Source of the DNA: Bolinopsis microptera
Lineage: Eukaryota > Ctenophora > Tentaculata > Lobata > Bolinopsidae
Assembly: GCF_026151205.1 (NCBI RefSeq)
Contig: NC_087073.1
Coordinates: forward strand, 14,467,837 to 14,531,836
Direction of reading: 5' to 3'
Length of the DNA stretch: 64,000 nt
Below the pieces are notes generated by a model. That model had not been told where the DNA came from and made no database searches. It saw only the letters and a list, made by a program, of their open reading frames with translations. The stretch's first letter is position 1. Each line of letters opens with the position of its first letter. The position numbers were made by a program, and so were the translations under genes. Below, piece by piece: positions 22,901 to 52,900 of this stretch.

Positions 22901-25900
22901 AGTCATGAAGGAGTATGGAAGGAGTTCTAAATGTGTGCTCCTCTAATATAAACAGCAGAAAATGGTTAACTTTAGTCGAGGTCTCAGGTCTTTACAATGT
23001 CGGGAAGTTCCTGCAGGAGTTTGCGCATTGCGCTGAAGCGTGAGATTCACTGCGCCAAAAGCGAAGGTCGTAGAGACATGTTGACACTAATCAGTACTCC
23101 CACGCCACGTGTGTTGAAGGGGTGGTCACGTGTGTTGAGGGGTGGTTACGTGTGGTGAGGGGTGGTCACGTGTGTTGAGGGGTGGTCACGTGTGGTGAGG
23201 GGTGGTCACGTGTGTTGAGGGGTGGTCACGTGTGTTGCGGGGTGGTCACGTGTGTTGAGGGGTGGTCACGTGTGTTGAGGGGTGGTCACGTGTGTTGAGG
23301 GGTGGTCACGTGTGTTGAGGGGTGGTCACGTGTGTTGAGGGGTGGTCACGTGTGTTGAGGGGTGGTCACGTGTGTTGAGGGGTGGTCACGTGTGTTGAGG
23401 GGTGGTCACGTGTGTTGAGGGGTGGTCACGTGTGTTGAGGGGTGGTCACGTGTGTTGAGGGGTGGTCACGTGTGTTGCGGGGTGGTCACGTGTGTTGCGG
23501 GGTGGTCACGTGTGTTGAGGGGTGGTGAGTATTGCAATTACCCGAGACCTCGTACTAAAATATCCATATTATTACTACAACTATACTAGTAATCTCCATA
23601 TTATTACTACTACAGGTGTTAAGATATCTCACTTCTTACTACCTTGTACCTTGTATTGGATTAAACTAAGAATTGGATTGAATTCGCGTGTTGTTGTTAA
23701 TGCAAGATACTCCTCGTAAAATAGGGTTGTGACTTGTGGTCACATTATACCTGGCCAGCATTATAAGTGTTCTCATTGCGTCTCATAAAATATCTTTGGG
23801 AACCGGTCACTGCGGCGGAAGTCACTGCGGCGGTGGACGGTACAGCGGAGGACGGTACAGCGGAGGACGGTACGGCGGTAGTTTCCAAAAAGGTTGGACG
23901 GTACGGCGGATCACATGACACCCACTTTACTTTGGACAGTACGGCGGTACTACTACTACTAGAAACTGTACCTAAGACAGAACTTACACATTCAACTTGT
24001 TTCTAAGTTTTGTTCTAGATTCGCATTATAAGTTTTATTTTTTATTTTCTTTATTTTTGTATAATTCTTGTTAGTTTAGTTGTTCATTTTTTTTATTCAG
24101 GGCTTTGCAGACAATGTAAATCGAGAATATTGAGTTGTTGAAAATCAAAAAGTTAAAATCCCACAAATCATTATCAAGAAGTTACAGCAATCAATAGTTC
24201 ACATAACACTTCTGAGCAGATCCAGGTAAGTCAAGACATCATCTTCGTAATGGGGTTGGAGTGTCCAAGGGTAGTGGAGAACTTCTTGTTCGAGGACTCC
24301 ACGAAGTTGTTCGTTCTGTTCATGTGGAAGTGGGTCCGATCGTAAGCGTTCCAGGAGAGTGGAGGGAACTTTGCTCGTCCAGTACCAGAGGAGGTGATGA
24401 GTCCCTGGATCCATGTCGTCTGGAAGTAGGCTGGGTGACTGACACCAGGGATCCGTTGAGGGTGTAGAGTCGTCCCTTGCATCTGTCGTTCTTCTTCACT
24501 CACCTTTAAGCCTGTCGTCCATCCAGAGTCGGCTTTCCATCTTTGGAGTAGCGGAAACCACGGTGTAGAAGGTTCTGACTCTTAGCAGTTCTCCCTCTGA
24601 CCACCTTCACCGTATCTTCATCGAACATCGTTGTAGCTGTTGTACTCAAGTTGTAGTGTTGCAGTACTGGAGATGGTAGTGCTAATGAGATAATCTCCTC
24701 AACTTTGATCCGCTTTATATACTGTTTGCCTCTATCATTATCTACGTTTCACTGAGCAACCTCTCTTCTTCGTGACGTTTTTTTATGCCCTTGTTATTAC
24801 CCATTGCATCTCGGCGCAGTGATATGAGATCTCACCGTAACAAGCTCATCGTGCACTCGCTTAACCACCGTTGTGCAGACCGGACGTGATCTGATACGAA
24901 CCAGAAAGTGGAACAAGAACTGCTCTTAGTAATCACAATGTATATGTTAAACTTTATCCAATTTAATTTTAATTTAATTTAATTTCGAAGTAACAAAGAG
25001 GAAAATATAACTTTTTATAGCTAATCGATTTTGTTATATTAGCAGTGCTAGGTCTATCTTATAGGTACAGTTTCTAGTAGTAGTAGTACCGCCGTACTGT
25101 CCAAAGTAAAGTGGGTGTCATGTGATCCGCCGTACCGTCCAACCTTTTTGGAAACTACCGCTGTACCGTCCTCCGCTGTACCGTCCTCCGCTGTACCGTC
25201 CTCCGCTGTACCGTCCACCGCCGCAGTGACTTCCGCCGCAGCGTCCTATACCCATATCTTTATCTAAGTACCCAGTTGCTTGCCTCAGCTCGTCTGTAAT
25301 ATGTCGCTATAGTTGTTTAAGATATCTTTTCATGATAATTTGCTTTGAATAGTACATATCATATTAGCTTTTGGTGGTCGGCTTTTTGGTGCCGAGGCTT
25401 AATTGATCTGCCCTTTTGTTACTAAAAATGTATTAGAAAATCATTAAGGCAAACTTCCAGGAAATGCATTATTGGCTGCAATTGCTGCGGCAGTTAAAAT
25501 AAGATATCAATTCATTAAAATATCTAAATAAATCACTCCTATTTTAATTAGATAGGAGCGAGTTGCCATAACTGTTGCTTGTTCAAATCGTTAAAATAAA
25601 TATTATGATATATCGAGATATCGAGATTTACCCAGTTTACCAGTTGTCGAACTTGTAGTTCTAACTAACCACCCTACTAGGAAATGCTAAACGACTCCGT
25701 GTACAGCACACCCTCCCGCCCCACCCCACCCCACCAAAACAACTACACCCGCTCAGAAACCGAACTCTTCATCCTCACCGTCTGGACATCATGGTCCCTG
25801 GCTTCTGCTCTTATTGGCAACACTGTCATCTTAGTTGGGATCTACTCTCGTGCCTTCAGAATTGATAAACTGTCCCTGCTGACTATCAAGAACTTGGCTG

Positions 25901-28900
25901 TGTCTGATATCTATTTTAACTTGATATGGGTGTTACCCACTTTAATAACGTTACTGAATGGTAACAAGTGGGTGTTAGGGCCGGGGATCTGTAACTTTAC
26001 CACTTACATGCAGTATCCTCCAGCTATAGCCACCATTTTCTTTATCACCCTCATATCTGTTAACAAGTGGATGAGATGTCAGTTCCCCCTAAAAACACTG
26101 GACATCACCACCAGAACTGCTTACAAACTAACAATCTTTATCTGGGGGTTCTCATTCCTGCACCCTACTGCTTACTTCGTATCAAACCTGATAAAAACAG
26201 ACGACCCCAGATACATGGAGCTGGATCTGTACAAAGGAAGTTGTGATTATCATCACGGGTTAGATCTAGCTGTGTACTGGAGCGGGGTAGATCTGACCTG
26301 CTCTCTGGTCTGCTGTATGACACCTAGTGGTATATTGCTGGCTTCTAACGCTGCTATACTCTACATTGTCAAGAAGAAGGGACGGGGAAATGTCAGAGTT
26401 TCCAACCTACTGATGATAGTGTGTCTGACGTGCATGTTCTTTATCTCCTACATGCCCTACACTGTCAAGTATCTCATGCCCTTTTTAGTGAGTGATCCTC
26501 ATATCCTCCCTGATGGGTTTGTTGTCATGACGTACTTCATGCTCTACATAAACTCCTGGGCCAATGTCTTTATATATTACTTTACTAACACTTCTTTTAA
26601 GAAGTTTGTGTTGCGTTTGATTAAATGTGGGGAGCCGTCCCGGAAGATAACGAACAGCTCAATGAGGATTATGGAGAAGAGCCGGCTAGCACATGTAGAT
26701 AGGCTCAGACAAGTTCAGCTGCGGAAAGGGTCGCCTAGAACTGAAAACGGGCGTCTGATCAGTGTGATTGTGATGCCCACGGAGATATGTGCCGAGCCAG
26801 TGGTACTGGAAACATGTGAATTAACTCCACTTGAGGAGAGGGTAACGGAGGATAATCATGTTCTGACTGATTGTGAAGAAGCAAATGTGTGATGCTGACA
26901 TTATGCATATTTCTGTAATTTGTTTTGTACATTTTAGATCTAATAATTAATTAGATAAACTCTTCGAATATAGAATATTCGTTTTATAAATGTTTATTTC
27001 TTGTCCCACATATAAGCGGTAGCAGCATTAAATATTTGCTTAATTCACACTGCGCTATAAAAACAGTGATCAGCTTCATTTGCAGATGCACATTAATGAA
27101 GCAACTCATTGCAACTAAAAGCATTGTTAATTTAACCTGCTACCTTCCTGGTCATGTGTACTGTTCTGATTTCATCAGAATAGCTAATAAGTGTTACTTA
27201 CATGACAATAGATATGTGTAACCTGTCGGACTGTCATAATATGTCCATTCATTAAGGTAATGCTCTACAGTTAATAGTATACAACTGATATATTGGTGTC
27301 CAATGTTAAAAATAATTCCATTTGCCCCGCTAAATATAACATATATTTTCTGAATAGACAGAAAGTGATGTTAGAATGATCTTGCTAATAATGTCTGGAA
27401 TAATTGTTGCAGGTATGAATAAAAATATCCTGTACTCAAATTAATTAATTACCTACTATTGTGATTTTAAAGTGGCGAGGTATTATTCCTACTTAGCACT
27501 ACGAATAAAGAAACAATGTGAATACAATATAAATGTGTGTGTGTGAACTGTGATGACGTTGTATTTCCTTCTTTAGTCTTTGTGTTGACTCACAATATGT
27601 TTCACCCAAATATGATATGTACTGTGTACTGTTCGCTTGTTATCAAAACTATACAATACATTTAGCTTTGACGCCTGGTCACCGCGGAGTATTGAGGTTC
27701 AAGTTATAATTATCCAAATTGTTCAGCGAGTAGGAATTTCACATGGGCACTGCCTTGTAACCCACCCCCCCCCCCCCCCCCATCCTCCCTCCCCTCCCCT
27801 TCCCACTCTCTGCACTTCTACGTCTGAATTACTCTCGGAATGATGGAGACCCACCCGACTTACCATCGGACAGCTCGAGGATAATCCGCAAATTTCTGTT
27901 ATGGCGCGAAATTTTGCAACGTGAAGAGTGAGCAGCATCATGTTTAGTTTCGCCAATGTTGGTGACATAATCATGTTCCACAATACCCGTTCACTGGGAA
28001 AGTGGGCGTCTTTAATAATCCAGAGACATGAAGCTGTAGTGGAAGGTTGTATCGTTACAGGAGCACGCGATCGCCCTATCAAATCGTGAAAGGTAGTATA
28101 CTGTTTTCAACCAAATATACGCGCGCGCTGTTTTCACATACTAACGTGTTCTGCGCGCATTATGTCTAGCTGCGATCTGCTAAGCTAGGCCAGCTAGCTG
28201 CACGTACTCGATTCCGGCCCGACTGTACGGACATAACTCTCCCGAAAGTTTTATTGCAAAATCACAGGGAAATTATCTTTGTTCTCATGGTTAGCAGTTA
28301 AAAAGTTGTGCATATTCTGTAGGTAAAGCTTTGTGAATTGTGTCTCTGTTATATCTACAGTTTGACTCGCAACTCATGATGTTACCATACATGTTTGATG
28401 TTACATGGCGAGATCTCCATCCAAAAGGATTAGTGTTACCAGGTGTTGTGGACCTCACGTCACAGGTAAATTTCTCGGTCACAAGAGATTAACAAATGTA
28501 GACTTACTACAGTTCTTGTTTGAATCTTAATACATAGCTTTGAGCTTTCCCGTTTGAGCGATTAGAGGGAAAACTTCGACAAGTTTGCACCCGTTTTCGA
28601 TCATCGAAATTCGATGCTCCAATACATTCTCTTATTCTTAACGAAACTTGCACATAGCATTTCGACGAGATTGTCCACTAAATTTACTAATTCAGTCACG
28701 CTTATCAAACACAGTACACACACTGCATATCTGGTTACAATACATATAACACAGTAAATTATCTAAGGAACTTGTGCTTTTTATAGATGTTTCATTTTCT
28801 AATAGTTGACATTACAACGTTCCCACCAGTGCTGTGTCATCGATACCTGAAGAAGGGCATGAACTATGGTAATATATAACGCGAGCTGAGAAAAGTCCCT

Positions 28901-31900
28901 TTATTTGTTACTTGAGTAGGATTTTACTGCACCACAACCATTAATGTGTGCGGCGGCGGCAGTCACAGGGAAGCGAAACTCGAAATACGGAAAACATGTT
29001 GCTCATGTAATGATATATCGTGTTGTTCAGTAACTCGTTAGTTTCTTGGGAGCAGAGTTTTGGAATGAGGAGTTTTCTTGTTTTGGTATTGTTTTTTGTG
29101 TCGTTTGAAAATGTAAAAGGTTGCCCGAATATTTGCTCATTTTTGTACAGCAATTCCAACGCAGACTGGGAGAATCACTCTAGCATAGCAGACACCTATT
29201 TTATTGTTGAAGGGATTGCATCAGGCAGTGTAACAGGAATAATCACGGCCCGCTTCGAAACCTTTACACCAGATTACGGCAAAACATTTGATTTCCTGAG
29301 GTTTCACAATGACAATACTAAAAAAGAAGACAACCAATCGCTTTTTTTCAAGATTATTCCCGGAAAAAATGGTGTTGTCAGCGGAAAGAAAGGCAGTCCT
29401 ATCGGGACGAAGTCGCTTAGTTTCGAGATCGTGAAGAGTATTCAAATATCAGATTTAGATGCAAATTTCTACAAAATATTCATGGGTTATCCGGGTAACG
29501 CTGAGAGCTTGGAATACAATTACGGAACTGATACAAATTGGAAAACGTTAAAAGATGTGCGTCTCAGAGACACAGTAAAGATAAAGAATGGTGGAAGATG
29601 TACTGTATACAAGTACATATCAGTCTGCTCTGATTCCACACCAAGACATTGTGGTGAACAACGTCTTGTAACAGAAAAGGTTACCCTCGGCTCTCCACAC
29701 ATTCTCACCTGTACCGGCTCTGGAGCTCCTTATCTTGATGTGATGTGGACCAGAGATAAGGCAACGGTTCCAGTTTGGTCAAGTACCTACGACAACACAA
29801 CAGCAGATCACCAGATCAGCTCTAAGGTAGAGATAGATAATATCACCTTGGACCATCTCGGAGAATGGATTTGCACCATCCGTAACAAAAACTTCGGTGA
29901 CAGTGTCAATAAGAAATACGTCCTACAGTACTCCAACCCAGTAATTCTCCTTGACTCACCAAATCTAGAATACTACAAAGACAATGAAAACGACACAGAG
30001 TTTGAGTGGACGGTTGAAGGGTGGCCATTAGAGCAAGTTAAACTAGAATGCGGAAATGAGAACATTTCAGTGAAAAAAAACGATACTGGCTATAGAACCT
30101 TTATACCTCCCCGAGTTGGATTTAAAATCATTCTAAGAAACGAGACCGTAATAAACTGTGTCCTAAAAGATGGAAATAAAGTCCTAAATACTCGTAACAT
30201 CACCAGAGTTGGATACAACTGCACAGAGGGAGAAGGTGGTGTTGGTAAAGATTGTGAAGAGTGTGAACCAGGACAAACTAGTGTGGCTGGAGTTGGAGAG
30301 TGTTTCGCTGGCAACAGTTCCTGTACAGAAGGAAACTGGGGAATTGACGGAATTTGCAATCCATGTCCTGACAACCAGACTAGTTCCTATCATGCGGTTA
30401 AACCGCAAGAATGCTTCACACCTGCACCTGAACCTACTGTACCGCCTGCACCAGACAAGAACCTTATTGCTCCTATAGCCGGTGGTGCTGGTGGATTTGT
30501 AGCTGTCTTGATAATGACTGCTGTTCTTTGTCTGATCCTCCGCAGAAAGAAACCAAAAGAACTCTTAGTCGGTCAACCTCTTCAGCCTAGATTTACAGGA
30601 ACTGCGGAAATCAATGCGGTCTACTCTGACGATCCAGTTCAAAGAACCATTCCAAGACTTCTAAGTGATCTGGATGATTCTGAATGTACTTACGCTAATA
30701 TGAACGAGACGCTCACCCGGAACAACTGTAAAAGTAAAGACAAGGAGAACACGTCTCAACAGTTTAATTCGACTGATAGATCCTTAATGGAGATGACCGC
30801 TATGGCCAGCAGATCTTTAGAAGTGGAAGAAGACACACCGTATGCTAATTTAGACGAAGTGAAAAGAGTGCATTCGACTGACAAAGACGAAAAAGGGGAA
30901 GAAAGTACGCTCGCTCGTCTAGAAAGACCAGAAACTGGGAAGAGAGCCAACCGGTCAGGGAAGATGTCGTCAAAAAATGGCGGGGACGGACTGAAGGAAG
31001 ATCCTCTTTATGCTGTTATCATAAAAGAAGAAGGGTAAAAGTTTAAATAAATTTGTTAATTTCAATGTTCTATTTTAATAGTTTGATTTAGCCAATATCG
31101 CACAATAATTTTGGAAACTCGTATATGTCTTTAAATTCCAACTGATCCTACTTCAGGAACCCTAAAGCTTATCCTAACATACGAGTCGGTAAAACAGGAA
31201 ATGACAACGGCCAGTTCAAGGCAAACAGGTAATTAGAGGGCAAATATAAGCGAACCAATTCCTAAACTTGGTTTTATTATTACAGTTGAGATCTACTACT
31301 AATCAAAGCTCTTTATTTTATATAAGAGATTTGACGAATGGGCCAATTCATTTTCTTTCTGTATTTTTTTAAAGTTACAACTTATTCTTATTTCAAGGAA
31401 TATGCCAATAGAAGAAGAAGATGACACTTATGCCTGCGTAGAGCTTTCTGATTCCTCTAAACTGAGAACCATACCAACAGTTCCAGTTGAAGATGAAGAT
31501 GACACTTACGCCTGCGTGGAACTATCTGACTCCTCTAAACTGAGAACCAAACCAACAGTTCCAGTTACCAACAACGAGAGAGCAGAATACTCCACGATGT
31601 CAGAGCTTCAACGTCAGAAGTCATACGAAAAGGATTGAGTGGAAATAGAAAGCGAATACAAATAACGTATGGATGAACAAACTTTGATAAAATCGCACGA
31701 AATTCATCATAGCAGTGTGAAATTAATAATTTAGTATTTTACAACTTCCTGCCTTCATACAGGCCCGGGACGTCTTTATATCAGGGACGTTTTTTTGTAA
31801 ATTTAATTTCACCCATTTAGTTTCTCAATCTCTGTTTTAAAGACTGCGGCAATTTTTCCCTCGTTATATTTTCCGCTATTTCTGTTAATGTGTTCTTGTT

Positions 31901-34900
31901 CAGCATAAAATGGTCTTATTGTATTATAATTTGTTTACTCTGATAATGAAAGCCTCGACTATCATCAATGAGGATTTAATTTGAATTTCGAAACCTTTGT
32001 CTACGTTTTATAGGGTGTAAACCTGTATATATTCCAGTGATTTTAATTACTATTTCTTGATTAACAATATTTTGCTCATATCATAATTTTGTAACATCTG
32101 TTAGAAAATTACAGTTAAATAAATGTGATTGCACTTCCAACTGTTTGTTTTCTGCATACACTCTAATTTTAATCCATAAAACGACTTGTAATATTGACCC
32201 AATAGAAGTTAGATTTTTTCAAATAAATTTTGAATGAAAAGTTGCATTGGACCTATTCACAACTTCTCTTAGGGGTCGTTTACATATTACATAATCAGTT
32301 TTACACATGGCTATTGTTTCAAAATTACACTAGCGTAATCATTTGGAAACCCACCCCCTCGGCTGATTACATAATACTAGCAGGAACCCGTAAAGCCCTA
32401 AAATGGTGTCAAGACCCAAGAGACTAAAATAATTATTACCTATCTAATTCGCACCACTAATTTTGACACCACTTGGGGGTCCAAATTTTGGGCTCTAAAA
32501 CTCCTATTTCTTGGCCAATTTTTTTTCATGCTGATTTGGAGGCATTAAAGCATTTGGTCCAGTCAAAAAAGTTTCAGTTGTATATCTTTTACGGTTTTTG
32601 CGGAAAGTCGCGTTAAAGTTGATGCCGTGGTGTCAGTAAAATGGTATGGATCCATATATATTTATCGTCTCACTTTATATATAGTAAGATGTGAACGACT
32701 CCTAATATAAACAAAAAATAGAAGTGATATTAGTCATAATGTTAATTAAACCGCAGCTTTCAAGCTCAACCTATGCTATATACAGATACAAACATAAACT
32801 CTGTGTAGAGGTAACATCCAGCACTATATGCATTATATGCATATAGTACTGGACGCTACTTCTAGACAGAGTTTATGTTTGTATCTAATTTCCTATTCAC
32901 TGCCTAGCGCTCAAAAACTGCTATCATTAATTTCTTCCTAGAAGAAGACACTCGCTTCCTTTCGAACGTAAGCAGGGCGGTCAAGCTCAATTCTCCAAAA
33001 TAGATATGAATTCTTAAATTGGTATTCCTAATTCCTAATTTTTGTAGATAGATATCCCCTTCCACATTGTATCATCAAATCCTGAAGAAGGACATGAAAT
33101 ATAGGATAAATCTCTTTATTTGTTACTTGAGTATGATTTTACTGCGCCACCTCAATTATTTATACTAGCAGAAACCCGTCTAACCCTAAAGCGGTGTCAA
33201 GATAAAATAATATTTATTTATGTTGTGATTTTGACAGCACTTGGGGGTCCAAATTTCGGGATCTAAAGTTCTTATTCCTTGACCAATTTTTATTTCTTCA
33301 TACTGGTCAAAAAGAAATAAAAACATTCAACCCAACCAAAAAAGGTTTGATGGTATATCTCTCACCACACGGTTTTCTCGAAAAGTTGTGTTAAAGTTGA
33401 TGTCGTGGTGTCAGTAAAATGGTAACAGATATGTATATATTTAAAGTCACTATTGTGACGGTACATTAGAACTAGACAGAAACAAAGTTTGAAGGGCCTG
33501 AACGGAACACCTCGGTTTCAGTTCCTTGTTTAACACTGCCGTACAGCAAGGACATCCACCGGGTTCTCCAAGGATGGGCACATAGCTCACTCCACACTAT
33601 GTTCTGTCAAATGTTGCTTATATACCAAGGATCTACAGGAAATATTTCCTTGTAAGTTTTAGAGGGCGATCTGTGAACAGACAACTACCTCATTCCCAAC
33701 TATAGGAACTAGAATTCCTATACTATCCCAACGAGCTACACCAAGCATAGTTTCAGATATATCGTCTCGCTTTATATATAATAAGATGTGCAGCTGTATG
33801 TAGCAGGGAAACGAAATTCGAAATACAAAAACTAGTATACTCATGATATATTGTTGCTTGCTAGTTTCTGGGAGCAGAGTTTTGTAATGAGGAGTGTACT
33901 TGTTTTAATATTGTTTTTCGCGTCGCTTGAAAAGGTAAAAGCTTGCTCGAATGTTTGGTAATTTTTGTACAGCAATCCTAAGTCAGACTGGGATAAGCAC
34001 TCTAGCATAGCAAAAACTGGTTTCATTGTCCCTGTTACACCCGGCAATGTAACAGGAATCATCACTGCCCGCTTCGAAACCTTCACTGATATTTACGACG
34101 AGCCAGGGAAAGACAGGAAATGGGATTTCTTGAGGTTTCTTAATGACGATTCTGATGGTGAACAAAACAAGTCACTTTTTTTTCTTCACCAATGCAATCT
34201 CGAAAGTGAAGGTTATATTAGGGAAAGAGGAATGACCTAGCAACCACGGGAACCTCGCTAACTAACAAGATCGTGAAGAGTATTCAAATATCAGATATAA
34301 ATACAAATTATTACAAAATATTCATCGGTCACCCTGGTAACGCTGAGAGCTTGGACTACAAGTACGAAAGTAGTACAGATTGGGCAAACTTCCAACATGT
34401 GCGTCTCAAGGATACTGTGAAGATAAAGAATGGTGGACGATGTACTGTGTACAAGTTCATATCAGGTTGCTCTGATTCCACACCAAGAATTTGTGATGAA
34501 CAACTTGTTACAGAAAATGTTACCCTCGGCTCTCCCCACACTCTCACCTGTACCGGCTCCGGAGCTCCTTATCTTGATGTGATGTGGACCAGAGATAAGG
34601 CAACGGTTCCAGTTTGGACAAGCACCTACGACAACACAAGTCACAACAGCAGATCACCAGATCAGATCTAAGGTAGAGATAGATAATATCACATTGGACC
34701 ATCTCGGAGAATGGATTTGCACCATCAGTAACAAAAACTTTGCTGACAGTGTCAATAAGACATACGTCCTACAGTACACCAACCCAGTAACTCTCCTCGA
34801 CTCACCAAATCTAGAATACTACAAAGACAATGGAAACGACACAGAGTTTGAGTGGACGGTTGAAGGGTGGCCATTAGAGCAAGTTAAACTAGAATGCGGA

Positions 34901-37900
34901 AATGAGAACATTTCCGTGAAAAAAAAACAATACTGGCTATGAAGGCATGAACTATGGTAATATATAACGCGAGCTGAGAAAAGTCCCTTTATTTGTTACT
35001 TGAGTAGGGTTTTACTGCACCACAACCATTAGTATGTGCAGCGGCGGTGGTCGCAGGGAAGCGAAACTCGAAATACGGAAAATATGTTGCTCATGATATA
35101 TCGTGTTGTTCAGTAACCCGTTAGTTTCTTGGGAGCAAAGTTTTGGAATGAGGAGTTTTCTTGTTTTGGTATTGTTTTTTGTGTGGTTTGAAAATGTAAA
35201 AGGTTGCCCGAATATTTGCTCATTTTTGTACAGCAATTCCAACGCAGACTGGGAGAATCACTCTAGCATAGCAGACACCTATTTCATTGTTGAAGGGATT
35301 GCATCAGGCAGTGTAACAGGAATCATCACGGCCCGCTTCGAAACCTTTACTCCTGATTACGGCAAAACATTTGATTTCCTGAGGTTTCACAATGACAATA
35401 CTGAAAAAGAAGACAACCAATCACTTTTTTTCAAGATTATTCCCGGAAAAAATGGTGTTGTCAGCGGAAAGAAAGGCAGTCCTATCGGGACGAAGTCGCT
35501 TAGTTTCGAGATCGTGAAGAGTATTCAAATATCAGATTTAGATGCAAATGTCTACAAAATATTCATGGGTCATCCTGGTAACGCTGAGAGCTTGGAATAC
35601 AATTACGGAACTGATACAAATTGGAAAACGTTAAAAGATGTGCGTCTCAAGGATACTGTGAAGATAAGGTGTGGGGGACGATGTACTGTATACAAGTACA
35701 TATCAGTCTGCTCTGATTCCACACCAAGACTTTGTGGTGAACAACTTGTAACAGAAAATGTTACCCTCGGCTCTCCCCACACTCTCACCTGCACCGGCTC
35801 CGGAGCTCCTTATCTTGATGTGATGTGGACCAGAGATAAGGCAACGGTTCCAGTTTGGACAAGCACCTACGACAACACAACAGCAGATCACCAGATCAGC
35901 TCTAAGGTAGAGATAGATAATATCACCTTGGACCATCTCGGAGAATGGATTTGCACCATCCGTAACAAAAACTTCGGTGACAGTGTCAATAAGACATACG
36001 TCCTACAGTACACCAACCCAGTAACTCTCCTCGACTCACCAAATCTAGAATACTACAAAAACAATGGTACAGTCACAGAGTTTGAGTGGACGGTTAAAGG
36101 GTGGCCACTAAAACAGGTGACTCTGGATTGTGGAAATGAGAACATTTCTGTGACAAGAAACGAGACTGGTTATACCACCTCCATACCACCCCGGATCGGA
36201 TTCAACATTACTCTGAGCAACGAAAATGTGGTAAACTGTGTCCTAAAAGATGGAAATAAAGTCCTAAATACTCGTAACATCACCAGAGTTGGATACAACT
36301 GCACAGAAGGAGAAGGTGGTGTTGGTAAAGATTGTGAGGTGTGTGAACCAGGAGAAACTAGTGCGACTGGAGTGGGAGAGTGTTTCTCTGGTAAAAGCTG
36401 CTGTACAGAAGGAAACTGGGGAATTGAAGGAACCTGCTACCCATGTCCTGACAACCAGACTAGTTCCTATCATGCGGTTAAACCGCAAGAATGCTTCACA
36501 CCTGCACCTGAACCAACTGTGCCAGACTCAGGTTACTGTTAAATTAATATTTTACATGTAAAATTGGGCTCCATGATTTTGCGAAATCACATCAGTTTTA
36601 ATTTCTACAAGCCGTTCTCATTTAACAACATCTAAATATAATTCCATGAACTTGCAGAATAACAAAAACTAAACCGTCAGGTTACAAAACAACTATGTTG
36701 GTTGGATGGGGTCTAGCGGCTGTGTTCTTCATCACTACGGTACTACTCTCAATAGCTTCTACACGGAAATTCGTACTCAGAAAATGCTTTAATGTTTACT
36801 CTGAAAATGAATATATTGAAAACGTCATCACACAACCACCCTCACTGTCTTCTACTGGAGTGCCTAACGAAACTATCTACAACAACCATGAACTTTACGA
36901 GATGAAACCTAATTAAACTCTCCTAAGTCACTTTATTCTTATCAGCCGTAATAATGGCATAATGGATGACACTTTAATTTTAGACATTATTCATGTTGAT
37001 ATTTTTAGGACGACACATCCAATGGTCATACTACCAAACGAACTTGTAACTCTTAATTTGGGTTCTCTTTATCTCGTGTTGTCAAGTGAATAAGTTAACG
37101 ACATTCTTTATTCTTGTGTGAAATATGATGTGATCCAATACGGGAAAGTAAGCAATTTGATACTGAGTAGAGCGTATGTAATTGTAGTTGTACATTTATT
37201 CTCTCAGGCGCGCCACCTCTCAGCCACCACTCGTAGGTGGGAAATCCACTGTTATACATAATGATGATTGTAAATGTAAATAAGAGTTTGTTTCTGATTT
37301 CTTTAATTATTTTTCATTCCAATTGTATTCTTTGTTAGTTGTCACTCATCAAACTAAACTATTACTTAATTCTGCATTCTGCATCTATACTAATAATCCC
37401 AATAAATCTGTGGATGTGTGGGTGTGTGGGTGGTAGGTGGTGGGTGGTGGGTGTGTACGTTTGTAATTTCCTAACGGTTTTATCAAGAAAACTGTAAGAG
37501 TTACTGTTGGACTTTCATGTTTGGAATTCCAGGATTGGAAAGATGAGGTCTCCCGGATCTTCACCAATCGCCTTAACTTCCTCTCCTCCTCCCCTAATAA
37601 CTTCACTCCCTACAATTCCATTCTACAAAGGGATGATGTTAAATCTTATCTCGACAGTCTTTCTTCTTCTTTTATTATTTGCTCCGTAGATAAAGCTTCA
37701 AATAATTATGTTTTTGTCTGCAAGAAGTTTTATCTTTTAACCCTTCTCAACGAACTTGGCTACGATCTCACTTCTCTAGAGTGTCGTGGCAATTCTACTT
37801 ATCATCCGGTTAACTCTGTAGAGGATGATATTATTCAGGAACATGTGAACTTCATTAAAGATAGCTTTAATATTCGTGTTTCTGAGGACAACCTTTGTCT

Positions 37901-40900
37901 ACCGAGAATCTTTTGGATTCCTAAACTTCACAAGAATCCTTATAAGTCTAGATTTATAGCTGGGGCCAGTAAATGTACCACTAAGCAGATATCAGTTGTA
38001 GTCAACAAAGGGGTGGCAGACAACTGAACCCAATTGAACCTAGTTCCCACGCAGTTAACAGGCACCCAATCAGCTTAATTGGGTGACCAATCAGCTTAAA
38101 TCCCAAAACGACAACTGAACCTAGGTCATATCACAACTCCACCCCGGTAAAATATTAATACATTATACAATATACATGCTACATGAAGATTGAAGAGGTC
38201 TCCTCCTAGTCGTCGGAGTGGTCTGCATCACACACATCTCTTCTACGGTGTTCCACTAGTGTTAGAGCTAACTGTTTTACTGCGTCTCTGCTGATGTTAT
38301 CGACACCTGTCAGCCGCATCCTCGAGAACGCAGGCCATCCAGCCTTTACAGAGTCGTCCTCTCAGTCTCTTCCCATAGTTTGGTTTCTAATCCAGTAAAA
38401 AATTTGGAAACTGTGTCTCTGGCATTCTGACAACGTGTCCGTCTAGCTTTGAAATTTAGCCTTGTAGATACGGATCTTGATGGGCGTTCTTATAGTTCCA
38501 CTGTTTCATGTCTTCCAAAGCTGATGGAACGCACCATTAGCACGCTGGATACTTGGCTCATGTTACTCGCCAGAATTGTCCAACAATCACGAGCAGATAA
38601 GTCCGGATCTGCCAACCACTCCGAAGCACCAACCTCAACAGACCGAAATTATAGCACTAGAAACCAAGCAGCAGCTAAACTAGAACGGTATTTGGAAACC
38701 TGTTAAACTGTTAGTGATTTCTAGTGACGATTGGGTTCAGTTGTCGTTTCAAAGTTAATTAGGTAGTCTGATTGGGTTTATAATTATTTTCCCAAGCTAC
38801 CCTGTCTAGGAAAAGTCCAAATTGGGTTCAGTTGTCCGGTAGCCCAACAAAGCTTTAAAAGTTTTAAAAGAATACTTTTCCAAATACTGCAACTCTATCT
38901 ACAACAATACTGGAATTAACTGCGACTGGAGCATTAACAGCTCTAAACAGTTCCTGGAAAGGCTGCCTAGACTAGAGATTTTTAATATGCAGGTATACGA
39001 CTTTACCACTCTGTATACCAATCTAGACCTTCAGGTTGTACAGTCACTGCTTTTCGAGCTAATAGATCTCCTCTTTAGTAATACGAATAAATTTATTTGT
39101 GTTTCTCTGTATAAGAACAACAATTTTTTCTCTAAAAAGGAATATAACGGATACTTATGTTTTTCTGCTGATAAACTCAAAACAGCTATTACATTTATTC
39201 TGTTTAACACTTTTGTTTGTTTTGGGGATCAGATTTTAAGACAAACGAAAGGCATTCCCATGGGAGGGAATTCTAGTAGCCAGTTCGCTGATCTTTCGCT
39301 AGGGAAGTGTGAATTCAACTACATGACACGCCTAATCAAAGAAAAGAAGTTCGGTCTCGCTAAGCTCCTCTCAAGAAACTGCAGATATGTCGACGACCTC
39401 AACACCATGAACTATTTGCATTTCTCTAACCTAATCAGGTCCATTTATCCACCTGACCTGCTTATGGAGAGGAGTGGTGACGACAATAAGTCCGTAAACT
39501 ATCTCGACATCAACATCTCGATGAATAACTCCGGACACGTCGCCACCAAGCTTTACAACAAACTTGATGACTTCAACTTTCCTGTGGTCATGTACACCTT
39601 TCCTAACAGTAATATTTCCTCTTCTGTTGGTTATAATGTTTTTTACGGTCAGGTCCTTCGTTACTCTTCCATTATCTCTGACCTTGATTCTTTTCTGTGT
39701 TCTACCAACACCCTTTATAGGACACTTCTTTCAAGATGTTATAATGACAGACTCCTGAAGAGTAAATTCAGAAAGCTTCTGAAAGACCGACCTAGTATTC
39801 TATACAAATACAGTATACTTGATGTCAGCGACATCCTTGACATCACATTTAACGTGAACAGGTGATCACTGACGAGTGATTGCTAGGGGGTCTTGGCACA
39901 TTAAACCGGTACAGGTATTAAACCCCCGAAACCGGTGTGCCAAGTCATCTGCTGATGATGTTCACATAACATTATTTCCTCTCTCCTTTATTCCTTCCGT
40001 CTTTTCTTAAACTTACAGTTCAGTTACTTTATTTCACCAGGTCTACCTAAGGATCAATTATTCTTTGGTGGGGTTTCACTTCTGGTATTGGCTTCATTCC
40101 CGTTCCTTTTCCTTATTCTTTATACTTATTTTTTATATAGTTTAATGAGAATGGGATAGTTATTCTGACGAAGCCAATAAGAAAATATTTGTTAAATCGG
40201 CCGTTGGTAAGTGGTTTAATTGATTGGTTTTGTAACCCAAATGTGATACTAAAGTGTCTCACTTTATCTCTCACACTCACTCTCTCAGTCTCTCTCTCCC
40301 CATTTACAGGTCCCCTAATTACTGCTTTGTACATAATTAGGTAAATTGGCAGTGGAGCCTATTAAGTATTACTATTGGATACGTATTGCGTGTTGGGCGC
40401 TCAGAATTAAATTTTCTCTAATGGGACCGGTTTCAACTGAGTAAGTTCATACTTTTGCACAATTGTAACCTTAGCACTGTTTATACTTTTGCAATTCAAC
40501 TGCGATAGTGAAGTCCTGGCCGTAGGCACGGGTTACACTAGTAATACAATAATCCTCCTACCATCAATATGATATCTGAGTTAAGACTTTCTTCTAACTA
40601 TATGCTAATAGTTGAGGTATAAAGATATTATGTGCCAATAGCCAGCGTAACAGCACCCCTCCTATACTTACCTTATCCGATAATACCTATTGCCGAACAA
40701 GTTACCTGAAACACAAATGCCTTGGGCTCCACTCTCAGTGAACTGACCTGATGTACAGATGGGCGGGTCCCCGGAAAACTCCCTCTCTCCTGAACACACC
40801 ACCACATCTCCCCCACTGTTGATAAAACCAGGACTGCAGTTCACAGTTACTATTGTACTGTGTTGTATTGGGAACTTGGTGGGAGTTGTCACGTGATGCC

Positions 40901-43900
40901 ACGTGCTCGGCAGTCCTGTGCAGTCTGAAACATATGTATATTGGATTGTATTCGAAACCGCTGCGTCGTGAAGATTAATTAATCTAAACTTAACCCAAGC
41001 AGTTGCCAACTCAATAACAGATCAATTAAGGAATCATACCTGGTATCTTGGTACCAAAACATGACTTGTAAGCTGTTGACCAGCCAGACCGGGACGTGAT
41101 GTCTGTGACTGTTACTCTAAAACACTCCCTGTAGGCCCAGTGAACTGGGCTTATAGCCACTGCTAGACAACGTTCTTCTTCATTACACCAACTTATACAG
41201 TCGTCATTGTTGACTAGTTCTTTCTGTCCGATTTTGTTAGAGTCATCGAAGCTACCCGTGTTACTTTGCCAGCAACCTGGACCAGAGGGAAAGGGTTTTA
41301 ATTCTTGGTGCTTCGTTAAATCTGATAAGCGGCAATCATTCATCACGATAAGTTTAGTTATGTATTCAAAATCATTCAAAATTAGATTAGGGTTAAGAAT
41401 GAAATTTGAGATCTTACTTTGTGTTGCTGAGTGCAGTAAGCACACAGTGAAAACGATAGCAAGCTTCATGGCCGAACAGTGAACATTAAGCTGAAATCAA
41501 TTACAAGGATTAAGACCGATCTCGACTCGGTTTTCTTTTCCGGTTCAGTGCGTACGATTAATAGATGTATTATATATCATGTAACCAATAACGAGTTTTG
41601 TTACATTTACATTAACTAATGTACATGTACTATCATAAACTTTAAAGTATTTCGATATTACAAAAATAGCACAAAACCCTAAAATAACCCTACAAAATCA
41701 ACCCTAAAATTATTGAGGTCGAAGTAAGGTAAAAATTCAAACAACAAAACCATATTTAAAAACTACGTTTACTACTAATACATAATTAATGTACAAAATT
41801 AGAGTTCAACAAGAAGTGCTGACAATCTTTTATCCTAATTTATACGGTTTAGATTAAATTACTGAATATTATTCTCGTCCGTCTCGGACAAGCGACAACC
41901 TTCTACGTAACTCTTCAACAAATGGTCATCTAATTTTGAAGCGGTCCTTTTTGTTCGTGTATTGTAAAGAGTAGACTTCGTTAGTTGTCAAGTCAGAATT
42001 GCGTGAGTCACGTGACATTTGGACCTATTTTTATTGGCCTATAGCCAACAGATGGTCTAGATTTTGTTGCAGTTTAAGACAAGGTTTAGTTTAATTCAAT
42101 AAAGTTAATATGAGAGAGCAAGTGAGTGTGACGTGAAGATGAAGAGTGTTGGTAGGTTCCTGATACCTACAAACCCATAGACGTACCACTATAATGACTT
42201 GCGATAATCAGTAGTCAATGACCTACTAATGCTACTAATGTTATTAATATATTAGTATTGTTAGGATGGAATGTACTCATCAGTTTCTCTTGTGAATCGC
42301 TTAACTGGTCAATATAGGACTGATGAGCTACTGTTTTCCTGGCTAGACATCATGCCTTATAGTTATACAAATTACAATATACACTATGTTTTATTTACGG
42401 GAGGGGATATTTTATGCAAATGTTCCAGGTTTGTGACCAATCATTACTGATAATTATCCGTCCGACCTTGTCTCAAACCCAATAACATAACAACATTTAA
42501 ACACAGTTTAAAGCAGACTGGTAAAAACACGAAACATGTTCAAAATCAGTTACTATTAATTAGGTAGCAATAAGCTCGTAAAACAAGAATATCGATATGT
42601 GTTATGCCAGGCAACAATCCTACCTCTCCCCTAGTATCAAGTGTAAATCACGTTTTTATGAGTCACACCGTCACGGGGTCTGGATAGTCACTACCCGGTA
42701 CCGAGCACAGACTGTGCTCTAAATCAAATATCTGGACGATAATGATCAATTACTAATTAGTTCTGTGTCTAATGGATAATAGATGTATCGGTAATAAAGA
42801 GTTCTCATTCTTCTACTGGTAAAAGGCTTGAATTTTAAAAGATTGCGCCAATACGTACATTTTATTTCGTAAGGGCTACTAGAAAGCCTTATGTCACAGG
42901 AAGGAGCTAACCGCATTCTTAGATAATCTATTCAAATTTTACAGACCCAAAAAAATTCATCAAAACCAAAATATGGCCGATTAAACGCACTGAACGCACT
43001 GATCACACCATCTCTGGTAGTGATGCCACACAGAGCACACCATCTCTGGTAGTGATGCCACACAGAGCACACCATCTCTGGTAGTGATGCCACACAGAGC
43101 ACACCATCTCTGGTAGTGATACCACACAGAGCACACCATCTCTGGTAGTGATGCCACACAGAGCGGCAACACTGAACCATGGTAAGAAGGAGTATGTCCT
43201 GAGATAAAAAGGCTTACCGGCTAGACTTTGTGACTATGAATGATTCAAAATGTTGAAAGCTTCACACGAGCGTGGCTCTATCAATCAATTATGTAGATTT
43301 ATCATTGTCATCCGGGCACAACTCAGAGAACCAGCCGACTCTAAATTAACCCTAAGTCTGCATTATTCTCTGTAGTTCACAAGAAACCGCTCTAAGTGGC
43401 AACTTCTAAACGGTTATCTAGGTAGTTTCCGTTCCATTGCCCTCGTGTCCTATGACATTAGAACATTAGTTATGAGGCTGCAGTGCACCTATTTGCGCTC
43501 TCGTGATAATAGCAATAACAGCACTTTATAATACAAGATATCTCGGCTTCAGAAGAAGCTAAATGCTCAACTTGGACATTTAAATTTTCAAAATGATCAC
43601 ATTGAGTCGGGTAGAGCATAATGTCAAAGTTCTCAGTCATTAGTCCTCGGATCGCTGAGTTATTAGGCCAAAAACCATTTTTACACTGTCGCGTGTTGCG
43701 ACTACAGCACTTCCAATCAAAATAACTCGGTTTCTGATTGGAGTTAAGAGCTTAAATCGGGCAGTAAAATGATCATACTGAGTACAGTGGGGTTAAGCCT
43801 AGTTTCAACGTCCTCAGGCATCAAGCTGTCAAGTTAATAGACCAAAAGCTTGCAAATAGACCAAAAGCTTGTAAATTTCACCATCTAGAAAAGCCAGTTT

Positions 43901-46900: not shown

Positions 46901-49900
46901 ATATGCTAAATATGCTAAATATGCTAAATATTCTAAATATGCCAGGAGTTCCAGCTGCTGGTACTAGGACACTCCCTGGGAGCGGGAGCTGCGACCCTGC
47001 TCAGTTTCATGCTCAGAGACCGCTACCCCACTCTCCGGTGTTTTGCATACGGTCCGCCCGGTGGACTTCTCAGGTAACAGGGCTCCTTTGTGAGGGGGTA
47101 ATTGTTCTGGTCTCCTGGTTATTATTGTGGGAGTAATGTTCTGTGATCACAGTGCGCGCTATTGTCATCTTATATAGATGTGGGATCATGTGGGCACTGG
47201 TTTTGTAAAACTGGATGTCGGTGTCCTTGGCTCTGATATTGATTATAATTATTGACTGCCCTAATTTGAGTAATTCTCGTATCTCACGGTTATCTCCACT
47301 GGGGATATCATGAGTTATGTTATAAGATTATAGAGTGACATATCTTTGAAATATTAAAACTGTTCAGCGAAGAAGCAGCGGAAGAGTCTAAGAAGTTTGT
47401 GGTATCGACTGTGGTTAACAAGGAGTTTGCAACCAGGCTCAGTATAAATAGCATCGTGCAACTCAGAGACAGCGTTCTCTCTGCTATTCAGATCAACCAT
47501 AGATCCAAGGTGGGCTTTTTAATGGTTGAGATTTTATTTTGAATTTAAGGAGAGATTTTCTGCGGGTTGGACTTGAATCATAAAAACGCTTATATAATTT
47601 GATTCATAAAGACAAATAGAATTAAACAAATACTGTACCATAAATAATCTCAATCATGCAAACATGCTTTCGTCACCTTACTCTAAAATACATAAAGATC
47701 AATCATTTTAAAATTGGGGAAAATTTAAACATTATCAATCTTAAGGTTGGAAGTTGGATCGCCCTAGAAGCAACGCTCGAATTTCCAAATTATCCCAAAT
47801 AACCAACTTCATAGTTGCTACGGAAAGCTGACTTTCTGACAAGCTAACCGACTGACTAGCTTACTAAAATTTAGTTAATCAACTTATTAGCTAATTAGCT
47901 ACCGTACAAACTACAACTCCACGTCATCCGCATCATTGGATCTGAGTTTCTGATAGACAGGTCTATCACTGCCTGAACCGGTGGTACCACCCTTTCCAGC
48001 GTCTAATCCCAAACAGTCTGATAGTTCTAATGACACCGTATTGTAATGGTGACACTCGTTTGTTATTCTGTGAACACGGGAGTATTGAACTGGCGGCTGG
48101 AAGCTGGGTGGTGCTGGCGGCGAGAACGGGTTCTTCTTCGCTTTGTTTAGCTTTCTCTTGAGACTCCTTGCTAAGTTGAAGAAGAATATATTAGAGATAA
48201 TGGATGAGAGCAGCATGGCTGAGAGGACGCCCAGGATTAACAGAAGTAGGTTCATATCAACCTTCTCCTCTTCTTGGTATGACCCGTCCTCTGCCTCTTC
48301 ATCGTCTGATACTGAGTTGTTATAGTTTATACTGGTTGTAATAACGGAGCTACTGGTGGAGAACTCCGTCTTAATTCCACAAGTACAGGAACATCTTATT
48401 GTCTTGGCGTCCATCTGCCAGATAAAGTCCGGTACGTTTATTTCTGTGGTTCCCGTTGCCATGGCAACTGTTCCTTTAGAACCCGCTGAAATTGTCATGT
48501 TACACTTCACTACACTCAGATCATTAGACACGACTGAGCATTTTGAGCTTTCAGTTTTCTGGAATCTGAATACCAGTTTTGGGGGGTCTATGTAGTTGAT
48601 ACTCTGGGTGATGCAATCAGCAGAAGGCTGAGCTGAATACACGCTGAACTCTGTTTGTGGTAGCAGCGTAAATGTCTCAGAGACCTTGTTCGTGGTCCTG
48701 GTGAGCTCATGTGTCGTGGCCTGGAGACGCTGACCACACTCGGTCGCCTCGCCCCGCCACAACCTCACCTCCCTCCCTGCTACCACCGTCACCACCAGTC
48801 CCAAACACTCCACCTCTGAACCTACCTCCAGGTCCATGCTCCTAGCGTTGGTTACCTGCTCATCGTGTGGGAATTTTATGGGAGTCAGCCCGCTCTTACA
48901 CTTCCACTCAGGGAGTGGGTGCTGGTCTGAGCTGAAGATTTGCTTAAACTGGGCACTGAGAGGGTCGTTGTAGCTCTCCGAGGGGAGTCTGACTATGATG
49001 AAGTAAGGAGGCTCGGTTAGTACTATTTTTGTTATGACGAGAAGACACAAGGTTATCGTAAGAGCTTGCATCAATTTATCATCTGATTGATAAATATGTT
49101 AAGGGAAACACTTAATAAAACAAAATGAGTTCAGAAGTAAAGAAGCAAGATCAAGTAAAATAGATCGGGAATGAACTTTGACCTTACAAACTACCAATAG
49201 ATAGATCCGAATATAAATACTCAACTATATTCCCGACCGGTATAATGGGAGCTATACAAATCTAAACGATCAGGGTAAGTCTAAGAGAGCGAATATACGT
49301 ACAATAAGTTATACGGAACTATTAGAGACTGCGTACTGTAATCCATTACAGAGACCATTCTCCGCTCTATCGATCAAACATCCAGGATAAACAAAGAACC
49401 GATATAAAGAAAGTATTCAAACAGGAGGATGATAATAATAAGTACTCTAACAGTAGTGATATATATATTGTAATGATATATGACCTCTTTAAACGTTGTC
49501 CCAGCAGACCGACGCTGTACCTGTCCGACATAACAAAACGCTAGCTCTAATTTTATGCTGCTTTTATTGTTTGACCTCTGCTAATCGATCTCGTGTGAGA
49601 ACTGAGAGTTGTGAGAAATAAGACAGTGTTTTGAAACAAAAGCAGCTCTGAAAAGGAGCTGTTCGTTTAATGGCTTTGACTGTTCTACGCGGTATTGTGC
49701 AATACAGTTTACGTGTTTAAGTATCGGTAACTAAGATAACATAATCAGCCCCATTACGAGGTCCTTATATTTAAATTATTCTAATCGAAGCAAAACGAAT
49801 TTCTAAAAAATGAGAGTCTGAATGAGCACGTAGAACATATCACGGGCAGAGAGAAGAAAGAGCCTAACTTTTATTGCAGCGCGTTGTATAATAGGGACCT

Positions 49901-52900
49901 ATAATGGCACCTGGGATCGCATTGTTTGCCCCCTATTTGGTTCGCTGGCCGGTAAGTAAAGCTTTTGTTGGTGCTATTTGATCGGTGAACCACCATTTGT
50001 ACTGATGAGCTTGATCGATTAATCTGAAAAGAAAGGGCTCTGCGTGAGGGTGTTAAATGAGAGCTATCTGGTCATGTGCCGCATTACTCGCAGTACAATG
50101 AATTGAGAGTGAGGATTGGGAGGCGCCTGATAGGGGAGCGCTTTAGTCTTATTATATCCCAACTAAACGTAATGATCCGACTTGATGCACATCAAACCTC
50201 TGCCTTCATCACTGTTTCGGATGTTACAAGTTTGATAAGTCATGCTAGCCTCGTTTGGCACGACTAAGAGTCACCTCATCAGATTCTGTATACTGGCCAA
50301 TAATAGCGCACCAAGACAGGCATATTAATATAGCTGATATATAGCTTTATACTTTTATAGTTATACTGTTTTGAGTGAAATTCCATCGTGACTCAATAAC
50401 AATTAGTGGCTTTAATTAGGAAGACTAGAGGTACTGGTGTGAACGGTTAGGACGGTTCGTTAATATTACTTTACGCATTAACATTCCATGAGTTTAGGCT
50501 TTAGGCATATAATATAGTCAGAAACAGCTGCCACCATATAATATAATATAGCATGATTTAGGCTTAAAACCAAACAGTAATTGAACTGAAACAGCCGTAA
50601 AATGAAGTGGAAAACCGACCATAAAAAAAATTACCAGAAAGAAATTCACACCAGGGCGAGGAATACTGCATAAAATAAACGAGCTTTTCAATACCAATTA
50701 TAACGAGGCTGTGTGCTGTGTGCCCAACAACGTGCTGTAACAGAAAAACTTAAAAATTTGCGGCATGCTCCAACTCCTGACAAACAATTATTATTATTGG
50801 ACTTTATTCCTACCCTAGCTCCGAATCCCTTACTCTTGATATTCCATGATCTTTATTTAATTAACTAAGTAATTAACTAAGCAATTAACTAAGTAATTAA
50901 CTAAGTAATTAACTAAGTAATTAACTAAGTAATTAACTAAGTAATTAACTAAGTAATTAACTAAGTAATTAACTAAGTAATTAACTAAGTAATTAACTAA
51001 GTAATTAACTATTTAATTAACTAAGTAATAGATGTGGATACTGGCGGGGAGGTGATAATTGTTTGTTTACATTAATAGTGAGCACATGTTAAGCAGGCTG
51101 AGGAGGTGATCATTGTTTGTTTACATTTTAGGTCGAGCACATGTTAAGCAGGCTGATGAGGTGATACATATTTTGTATTATAGAAGGCTTGTAACACTTG
51201 TAACGCCTTCTTGTTACCCCCCTTTGAGGGCCCCAAATTATTTTCTGAACGAAAGCTCAAAAATAACCGAGAAATCGACCTTCTTATTAACTCATTTTGA
51301 TGACCGTTTCTAACCTAAAATTGCACGAAAAATCGATTTAGCTAGGTTTCAGAACCTATAAACACTTCCTTATCCCTCAAAATTGATGTTTTATAGTTTA
51401 GAATGCGAGCAACAAGCAACATATATTTTGATCCTTCGGTTCTACTGCAGCTCTTGACCTAGGGCTGAAACCGAAAGATCGAGGCAATCCTCACCTTAAC
51501 TGATCGAACTTGAGCGAAGAGCAGAGTACGACAAAACACAGCAGGTAAGTCATTTTGGTGACTGTTCCTCACCTGTACAACGTTGCACGAGAAATCGATT
51601 TAAGTTGGTTTTACAGCCCAATAACGCTTCCCTATTCCTAAAATTTTTGTGTTACTCAAACAAAGAACATGATGATTCTGCAACGAAAGAACAAGGAGAT
51701 CATCTCGTTAACAACTTGAACAGGTTCTATCACAATTTTCAGAGCAGAGCACGATAGCAAAGTCAAAAGAAACAAAATAAAGGTAGGTAACCAACACAAT
51801 GATATAACAATCACAATAACAACTGAATTAAATTTATTCGGACGACGGGCAGCCCTGATGTGCTCCGTGATCCTGACCAATTGTAAAAGAGGTGCTATGT
51901 CACGTGACGCAGATCCGTCCAATCACAAACAGGAATAGTCAGCAGACGGGGGGGTAGGGTGGGGGTTGTTTACGATAGTCAAACAATCTTGATAGTGTGT
52001 TGGTCTCTCCCCCAACTGACTGTAGTGCTTTAAATTGTCCAGTCAGAACAGAACATTAACATAATTTTGTAGTTAATTAAGTAGACCTGGTCATTTTTTA
52101 AAAATCACTGTCCACCTCCCTTAAAAAAACAGGGTTCAAATTAACAAGTTGGGCACACACGAATGCGATGTCGCTGAGATAAGGCAACATCTTCGCCACA
52201 ACTTTGTTTCCCAAAATCTTGTACCGCTTCAGATAGCCAATGGAGCGTTCCACGTGGATGCGGGCGATGCTGACTTTTCTGCTGGCTGCTACTTCTTCCG
52301 GCGTGAACTGAGTCTTGCCCCACATCCCCGCTGGGATGTTAAGTGTAACTCCTGAAATTTAATTCGCTTTTTATTCCGCTTATTCTTAACTAACCGGACG
52401 ATGATTAATCACTCTACACTCAACTGATACGTGACGTTTCAACACGTTCTCTAGATGGCTCTGAAACCTTAACCACCCACAATTATGACCCTAACCCTAA
52501 CACAAACCCGATTTCTAACTTAAGCATATGCTGAAACCTTAACGAGAAATTAGAAATCATAGGTCATAGCATGTTATCTCGCCAGAGGAGCATCAGTTGG
52601 GTGATTCACAATCAGCATACAAAAATATAAATACTACGATTTAAGTTGGTTTTAACTGTTAGTGTTAGGGGCCCGTTCAGAAAAATCTCATATTTCGAGT
52701 GAACAGATAAGAAAGGTAAACATACGATATAATGTCCCTCTGCTCACTCTTCCTGTTTGTGATTGGACGGATCTGCGTCACGTGACAGAACACATCTATT
52801 ACAATTGGTCGGGATCACGGAGCACATCAGGGCTGCCCATCGTCCGAATAAATTTAATTCAGTTGCTATTATGATTGTTATATCATTGTGTTGGTTACCT

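Follow-up and report, generated by a model that had tools for sequence, protein, structure and literature searches.

Do two neighbouring ctenophore genes encode receptors that share one extracellular head and differ in what they signal? The question is raised by a 64,000-nucleotide stretch of the Bolinopsis microptera genome (the window; C2:14467837-14531836), which holds two predicted receptor genes, A and C, with a broken copy, B, between them. A preliminary description had presented A and C as paired activating/inhibitory or allorecognition receptors with an N-terminal domain of no known family. We compared the locus with the whole genome (264.65 Mb, 232 contigs). In the available part of the assembly report, 13 chromosome-scale scaffolds make up 97.23% of the assembly and the k-mer size is near 254 Mb (PMC10232365). 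In our best reading, A and C are probably a tail-swapped pair acting as dual-output recognition receptors. The pair and the pattern of its gene family point towards a recognition system, as yet little described, in an early animal branch.

Heads and tails of A, C and their relatives

The layout described for both receptors, with signal peptide, N-terminal domain (N-domain), immunoglobulin (Ig) domain, second beta domain (D2) and Cys-rich stalk, was borne out: over 365 residues the two ectodomains share 91% identity. The Ig domain is the only one recognised by a Pfam scan of A and C. Beyond PEPTVP the receptors part as abruptly as had been reported, with unrelated membrane spans and tails that have no similarity (blastp E 2.5), and the tyrosine motifs of the two tails were found as given. 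A is a single exon with one open reading frame (ORF) from the ATG at 29065 to the stop at 31038 (657 amino acids). The separate exon proposed for the short tail of C is likewise predicted here, through a frame-compatible GT-AG pair (36531/36681) that keeps the frame open through ...EPTVPDSGYKTTMLVGWGLAAVFFITTVLLSIASTRK....

Genome searches with A, L020, L012, L014b and L043 as queries yielded 28 loci with ectodomain similarity on eight chromosome-scale contigs (C1, 2, 3, 6, 10, 11, 12 and 13), leaving aside a match to D2 alone on C8 and, on C4, a protein that shares only the tail. The loci are dispersed, yet form local clusters on C1, C2 and C13, and in 16 of the 28 a single open frame covers everything from N-domain to membrane span. 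The number of Cys-rich repeats ranges from zero in L014a-c and L008b to many in L010 (a 1690-codon frame), Pfam domains in relatives include TSP1 in L019 and weak TNFR-like matches, and five members (B, L002, L005, L008a, L017) are truncated or frameshifted. Judged by predicted architecture, A and C belong to an expanded, largely single-exon ctenophore surface-receptor family composed of N-domain, Ig, D2, Cys-rich repeats, transmembrane (TM) span and tyrosine tail. No paper on such a ctenophore family was found in the literature searched, most subscription journals lying outside its reach. Ctenophores including Bolinopsis have hundreds of I-set/V-set genes (PMC11797021); in the available part of that study of immune-domain repertoires, the analysis follows TIR2, NACHT, SRCR and CTLD genes and not the present Ig family.

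The separation of head from tail extends beyond the window. Among six close pairs with 74-91% ectodomain identity, five have no detectable tail similarity: besides A/C, these are L014b/c (84%), L014a/b (75%) and L014a/c (74%), with tail E-values from 0.34 to none, and L009/L008a (80%, none). Ten pairs labelled as carrying YAxL tails have more distant heads (34-62% ectodomain identity), and five of their tails align at E<1e-4, three at 0.002-0.012 and two not at all; the weaker of these values are soft, because blastp was run with -seg no and without composition correction on short, biased tails. The five aligning pairs span 44-62% ectodomain identity and include A/L004 (51%; 7.5e-13), L004/L001 (62%; 1.9e-10) and L004/L010 (44%; 8e-8). 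Because these tails still align while that of C fails to do so at 91%, we read the C tail as replaced rather than worn down.

Both types of tail also occur on other heads. Relatives of the TM/tail exon of C lie on C9 (E 6e-15, no ectodomain recognised upstream), on C13 (2.5e-5, TSP1 exons nearby), on C2 (5e-4, a Cys-rich exon nearby) and at C1:5525779 (0.003), 0.5 kb downstream of the L005 ectodomain. The tail itself has a relative on C9 (E 2e-16) with the tyrosine motifs kept, and a phase-1 AG/G start fits four of five TM exons (C, L005, L037 and L041; L038 is ambiguous). The A-type YAxL tail is found on L019, a TSP1 protein. With each tail type on more than one head, we interpret the pattern as cassette exchange.

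In an ectodomain tree of 21 rows (B, L002, L003b, L015, L017, L042 and L043 omitted; L011 partial), the short-tail label requires four changes, and four are forced by the starred branches; branch values are 99/100 for A against C, 100/100 for (L003a,L004) against L005, and 99/96 for L009 against L008a. Short-tail labels were given to L005 by its TM exon only, to L008a by EYIEN motifs and E 8e-4 to the C tail, and to L008b by E 5e-4 to L008a; the YAxL label of L009 reflects motifs and E 0.002 to A. On these comparisons, tail replacement recurs across branches of the family, and the paired-receptor architecture is real and recurrent in a ctenophore. Since 300-nt blocks are repeated at 87-98% identity and the same architecture is present on other chromosomes, the observation made on A and C is beyond chance.

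The copies are mosaics. A and C are 96-100% identical over most of the N-domain, with one 75-nt block at 87%; two blocks in D2 fall to 79%, where A and B are 99% and 92% identical, and B and C share 95-99% in Ig. B is cut off inside D2, at the junction with the 5' flank of C. In A/C, L009/L008a and L014b/c, adjacent domains differ several-fold in their synonymous rate (dS). This mosaic and the uneven dS are best explained by conversion or recombination between copies. The ratio of nonsynonymous to synonymous rates (dN/dS) between A and C is 0.14-0.39 by domain, with the N-domain at 0.14. Diversifying selection was considered as a general feature and rejected: of 22 domain comparisons, only the Ig domain of L009/L008a exceeds 1 (1.27).

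Tail motifs and a possible route of signalling

We counted motifs in 19 tails holding 81 tyrosines (the L008a tail left out) against 1000 shuffles. YxxΦ occurs 33 times versus 12.9 in shuffled tails (2.6-fold; no shuffle as high), YxN 11 times versus 5.3 (6 of 1000 as high), and the relaxed immunoreceptor tyrosine-based inhibitory motif (ITIM), [SIVLT]xYxx[ILV], 10 times versus 4.3 (10 of 1000 as high); YxxM and the corresponding switch motif (ITSM) are not enriched in these tails. The tail of A contains a single relaxed ITIM-like match (TPYANL), that of C none. The activation motif (ITAM) is absent from A, extended A and C and is found in one of 21 tails (L010). No charged residue was found in the TM core of the 18 ORFs with a scripted TM segment, nor by eye in exon 2 of C. 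Of the activating/inhibitory pairing put forward for A and C, the layout is supported: the same head on unrelated tails is present and recurrent. No polarity is assigned, because neither A nor C has a charged TM residue or an ITAM.

A gene of the SHP type (SH2-SH2-PTP) lies on C8, where its N-SH2 and C-SH2 match PTPN11 at E 6.8e-28 and 7e-23 and PTP exons follow downstream on the same strand. Given this gene and the tail motifs, an ITIM-like signalling route through an SHP-type phosphatase is possible, with endocytosis through YxxΦ as the alternative. Under the dual-output reading, the heads of A and C would share a ligand; tails of the A type (acidic-YAx[LIV], ITIM-like) would recruit SH2 proteins such as this phosphatase and those of the C type (EYIEN/YNN) a different SH2 set, and one ligand would thus give two outputs, with expression of one gene or the other deciding between them. 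Heads would have stayed alike and tails different through duplication of genes, conversion and the swapping of a phase-1 terminal exon.

What the sequence alone gives is one head with two unrelated tails, the same arrangement in other branches, tails on other ectodomains, long tails rich in YxxΦ, and mosaic neighbours. An immune or self/non-self role of the family is plausible. A fuller picture is unlikely to hold in its entirety: a multi-locus ctenophore paired-receptor system for self or microbes, having a galectin-like-plus-Ig head, interchangeable tyrosine-tail cassettes, heads homogenised by conversion, tails exchanged as phase-1 exons, and SHP- and Src-type SH2 signalling. Should the pairing prove functional, paired receptors with two outputs would have been present, or have evolved independently, in one of the earliest animal lineages, and the presence of the same tail cassettes on both Ig and TSP1 heads would illustrate how fixed recognition heads get new signalling outputs. 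Grafting and gene editing are possible in ctenophores in the laboratory, which makes the system testable.

Two other observations concern SH2 signalling and tyrosine tails. A candidate Syk/ZAP-like tandem SH2 gene on C102 and C107 was rejected; it is instead a Src-like kinase gene (L045 on C102) with two adjacent, differing SH2 exons, perhaps alternative. The truncated member L002 (C10:16182500-16188500) has TYINMN 60 times, in 14-residue units repeated in tandem across two frames; this tail tract, with its many PI3K/Grb2-type sites, probably lies in a broken gene.

The N-terminal domain and alternative readings

That the N-domain matches no known family stands at Pfam thresholds and is less clear below them. 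No match to the galectin family PF00337 came up at E values of 1 or below (0.1 in one scan) when A, C and 11 relatives were scanned. A profile built from 21 N-domains and run against 177,635 PDB sequences at E up to 10 hit only three Galectin-10 chains (E 0.5-0.62), so that galectin is the sole family matched in PDB, at a non-significant level; the galectin idea preceded this search and was prompted by reading L018/L020. With hhalign, the first N-domain alignment (A1) matched ctenophore galectins at P 0.0045, or 0.00039 in the other direction, with 0 of 200 column shuffles as good, compared with controls of 0.81 (Ig versus galectin), 0.25 (D2 versus galectin), 0.75 (N-domain versus Ig) and 0.07-0.12 (reversed). 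The set A2 (0.074) and A alone (0.11) were weaker. The signal is unstable to realignment: it was kept with all 23 rows (0.022/0.0048; 0 of 60 shuffles) and a 14-row subset (0.027/0.011; 0 of 60), and lost with the main 19 rows (0.55/0.34; 22 of 60) and the L013+L016 core (30 of 60). A phmmer search with the second N-domain of L020 returned one antibody chain (E 1.4), and AlphaFold2 on window-only rows was uninformative for the N-domain (pLDDT, its per-residue confidence, 30; pTM, its predicted template-modelling score, 0.23). The family N-domains differ from galectins in lacking a Pfam match and the galactose-binding signature W..E.R, found in none of 21 N-domains versus 6 of 10 ctenophore galectin domains. 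The odds that the N-domain has a galectin-like fold are about even, and galactose binding is unlikely.

Several of our results weigh against a tail-swapped pair. L007 and L011 are a close pair (79% over 203 residues) whose tails remain similar (E 5e-6). Tails with the same label can fail to align, as in A/L006 (E 0.35) and L009/L010 (E 0.23); disordered tails may simply have diverged, which would account for some of the difference. The tail labels of L005 (tail disrupted), L008a (frameshift before TM), L008b and L009 were assigned by weak similarity or motif, and two of these, L005 and L008a, are possibly broken genes. The donor of C, GTTACT, is non-consensus and its splice predicted only, YxxΦ doubles as an endocytosis signal, and all but one of 22 domain comparisons (4 in A/C, 18 in others) give a dN/dS below 1, so the heads carry no arms-race signature.

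Some of these points would suit ordinary duplicates, that is, adhesion or developmental receptors whose tails diverged or broke, with C a failing copy and no paired function. The heads are under purifying constraint, several members are broken, and disordered tails in general evolve fast. We consider this account somewhat unlikely, as the YAxL tails that align at far lower head identity than that of A and C, and the C9 relative of the C tail with its tyrosines retained, argue against simple decay. C could also be a soluble decoy, a secreted head made by intron retention that competes with A: the unspliced frame runs to 36539 and ends ...PTVPDSGYC, a few codons past the Cys-rich stalk. This is quite improbable, because exon 1 can be spliced in frame to the TM/tail exon through a GT-AG pair, relatives of that exon adjoin other genes, and no AATAAA was seen by eye in the 149-bp intron. 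A third account, microbe- or glycan-sensing immune receptors with the N-domain as a lectin-like head, fits the large family and the weak galectin-like signal; the vanishing of that signal in some realignments, the missing W..E.R and the low pLDDT leave it a tentative possibility.

For allorecognition, in which polymorphic heads would bind like heads on another individual, as in Hydractinia Alr, the family offers Ig receptors that cross the membrane once and end in tyrosine tails, along with pseudogenes and mosaic copies. Like Alr1/Alr2, the A/C family consists of single-pass Ig-superfamily surface proteins in a multigene family with pseudogenes. In the available parts of the Hydractinia studies, most Alr genes sit together in a single complex, and the Alr heads are highly polymorphic (PMC11067881, PMC11876637), whereas in the one genome compared the ctenophore loci are dispersed, belong to another phylum and have a different domain order; clustering in one complex was not seen among the 28 loci, save the local clusters. 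Loci spread over eight contigs, the low N-domain dN/dS of A/C and the lack of a paper on a ctenophore allorecognition receptor in the literature searched make this reading very improbable; ctenophores, moreover, fuse readily. The allorecognition role first suggested has no specific support, and the cnidarian Alr frame was set aside because the genome is that of a ctenophore. In line with this origin, an ionotropic glutamate receptor on C6 finds its best PDB match in ML032222a, a Mnemiopsis entry (E 9.7e-121, compared with 3.7e-71 for the top vertebrate chain); a second such receptor, L023, was not discriminating, since vertebrate kainate receptors ranked first and ML032222a was absent from the best 60 chains listed.

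The dual-output pair that we favour resembles the paired receptors of vertebrates (KIR, LILR, SIRP, PILR and others) in its near-identical Ig heads with unrelated spans and tails, tandem copies, conversion mosaics and pseudogenes. It differs from them in that A and C have neither a charged TM residue for an adaptor nor an ITAM, that the C-type partner has a tyrosine tail of its own, that the heads add an N-domain and TNFR/ephrin-like Cys-rich repeats, and that the loci are dispersed.

Features of the window

Coordinates of the parts of A, B and C are collected in the table. The candidate 3' exon of A would add two copies of DDTYACVEL and one YSTM; it resembles the tail of L004 (E 5.7e-9) and has a 78-bp internal repeat. 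AATAAA signals lie 3' of both possible ends of A and of C.

Table. Parts of receptors A and C and of the broken copy B, in window coordinates
Feature	Positions	Strand	Basis or remark
A 5' flank, 95% repeat in front of C (34944-35095)	28856..29007	+	repeat comparison
A signal peptide, predicted, residues 1-19	29065..29121	+	sequence; cleavage site judged by eye
A N-terminal domain, no Pfam match; family profile weakly galectin-like	29122..29631	+	Pfam scan, profile comparison
A immunoglobulin (I-set/ig) domain	29626..29955	+	PF00047 E 2.7e-7, PF07679 E 1.6e-6, residues 201-280
A second beta domain D2, two invariant Cys	29956..30219	+	Ig-like by eye; no Pfam match
A Cys-rich stalk, zero to many copies among relatives	30220..30438	+	multiple matches of residues 385-452
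A membrane span, core without charged residue	30475..30537	+	
A long tail with TYANM, PYANL, LYAVI, plus stop	30538..31038	+	
A candidate optional 3' exon	31398..31638	+	donor 31035, in frame; open to 737 codons including stop
B, truncated pseudogene copy between A and C	33887..34942	+	start kept; split over two frames, stops
C exon 1: signal peptide, N-domain, Ig, D2, Cys-rich stalk	35148..36531	+	ATG 35148
C intron, predicted GT-AG, phase 1	36532..36680	+	CAG/GTTACT ... CCGTCAG/GTTAC
C exon 2: membrane span and short tail (VYSENEYIENVI, IYNNHELYEM)	36681..36916	+	predicted splice

Between A and B lies a 50-bp inverted repeat (32784-32886; 90% complementary, 3-nt loop), and C is adjoined by two reverse-transcriptase-like ORFs (37467-39865, + strand), Penelope-like by eye and with no Pfam match over cut-off. 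Elsewhere in the window are a single-exon rhodopsin-type G-protein-coupled receptor (25681-26892, + strand; PF00001 E 3.6e-18), exons of a Sushi-containing surface protein (40668-41496, - strand; PF00084 at its cut-off) and one more membrane protein with a single exon and tyrosines in its tail (47911-49098, - strand; no Pfam match over cut-off). A DNA transposon, seen as an inverted pair of similar ORFs around a DDE_Tnp_4 fragment (PF13359 E 6.8e-12), occupies 51500-53185.

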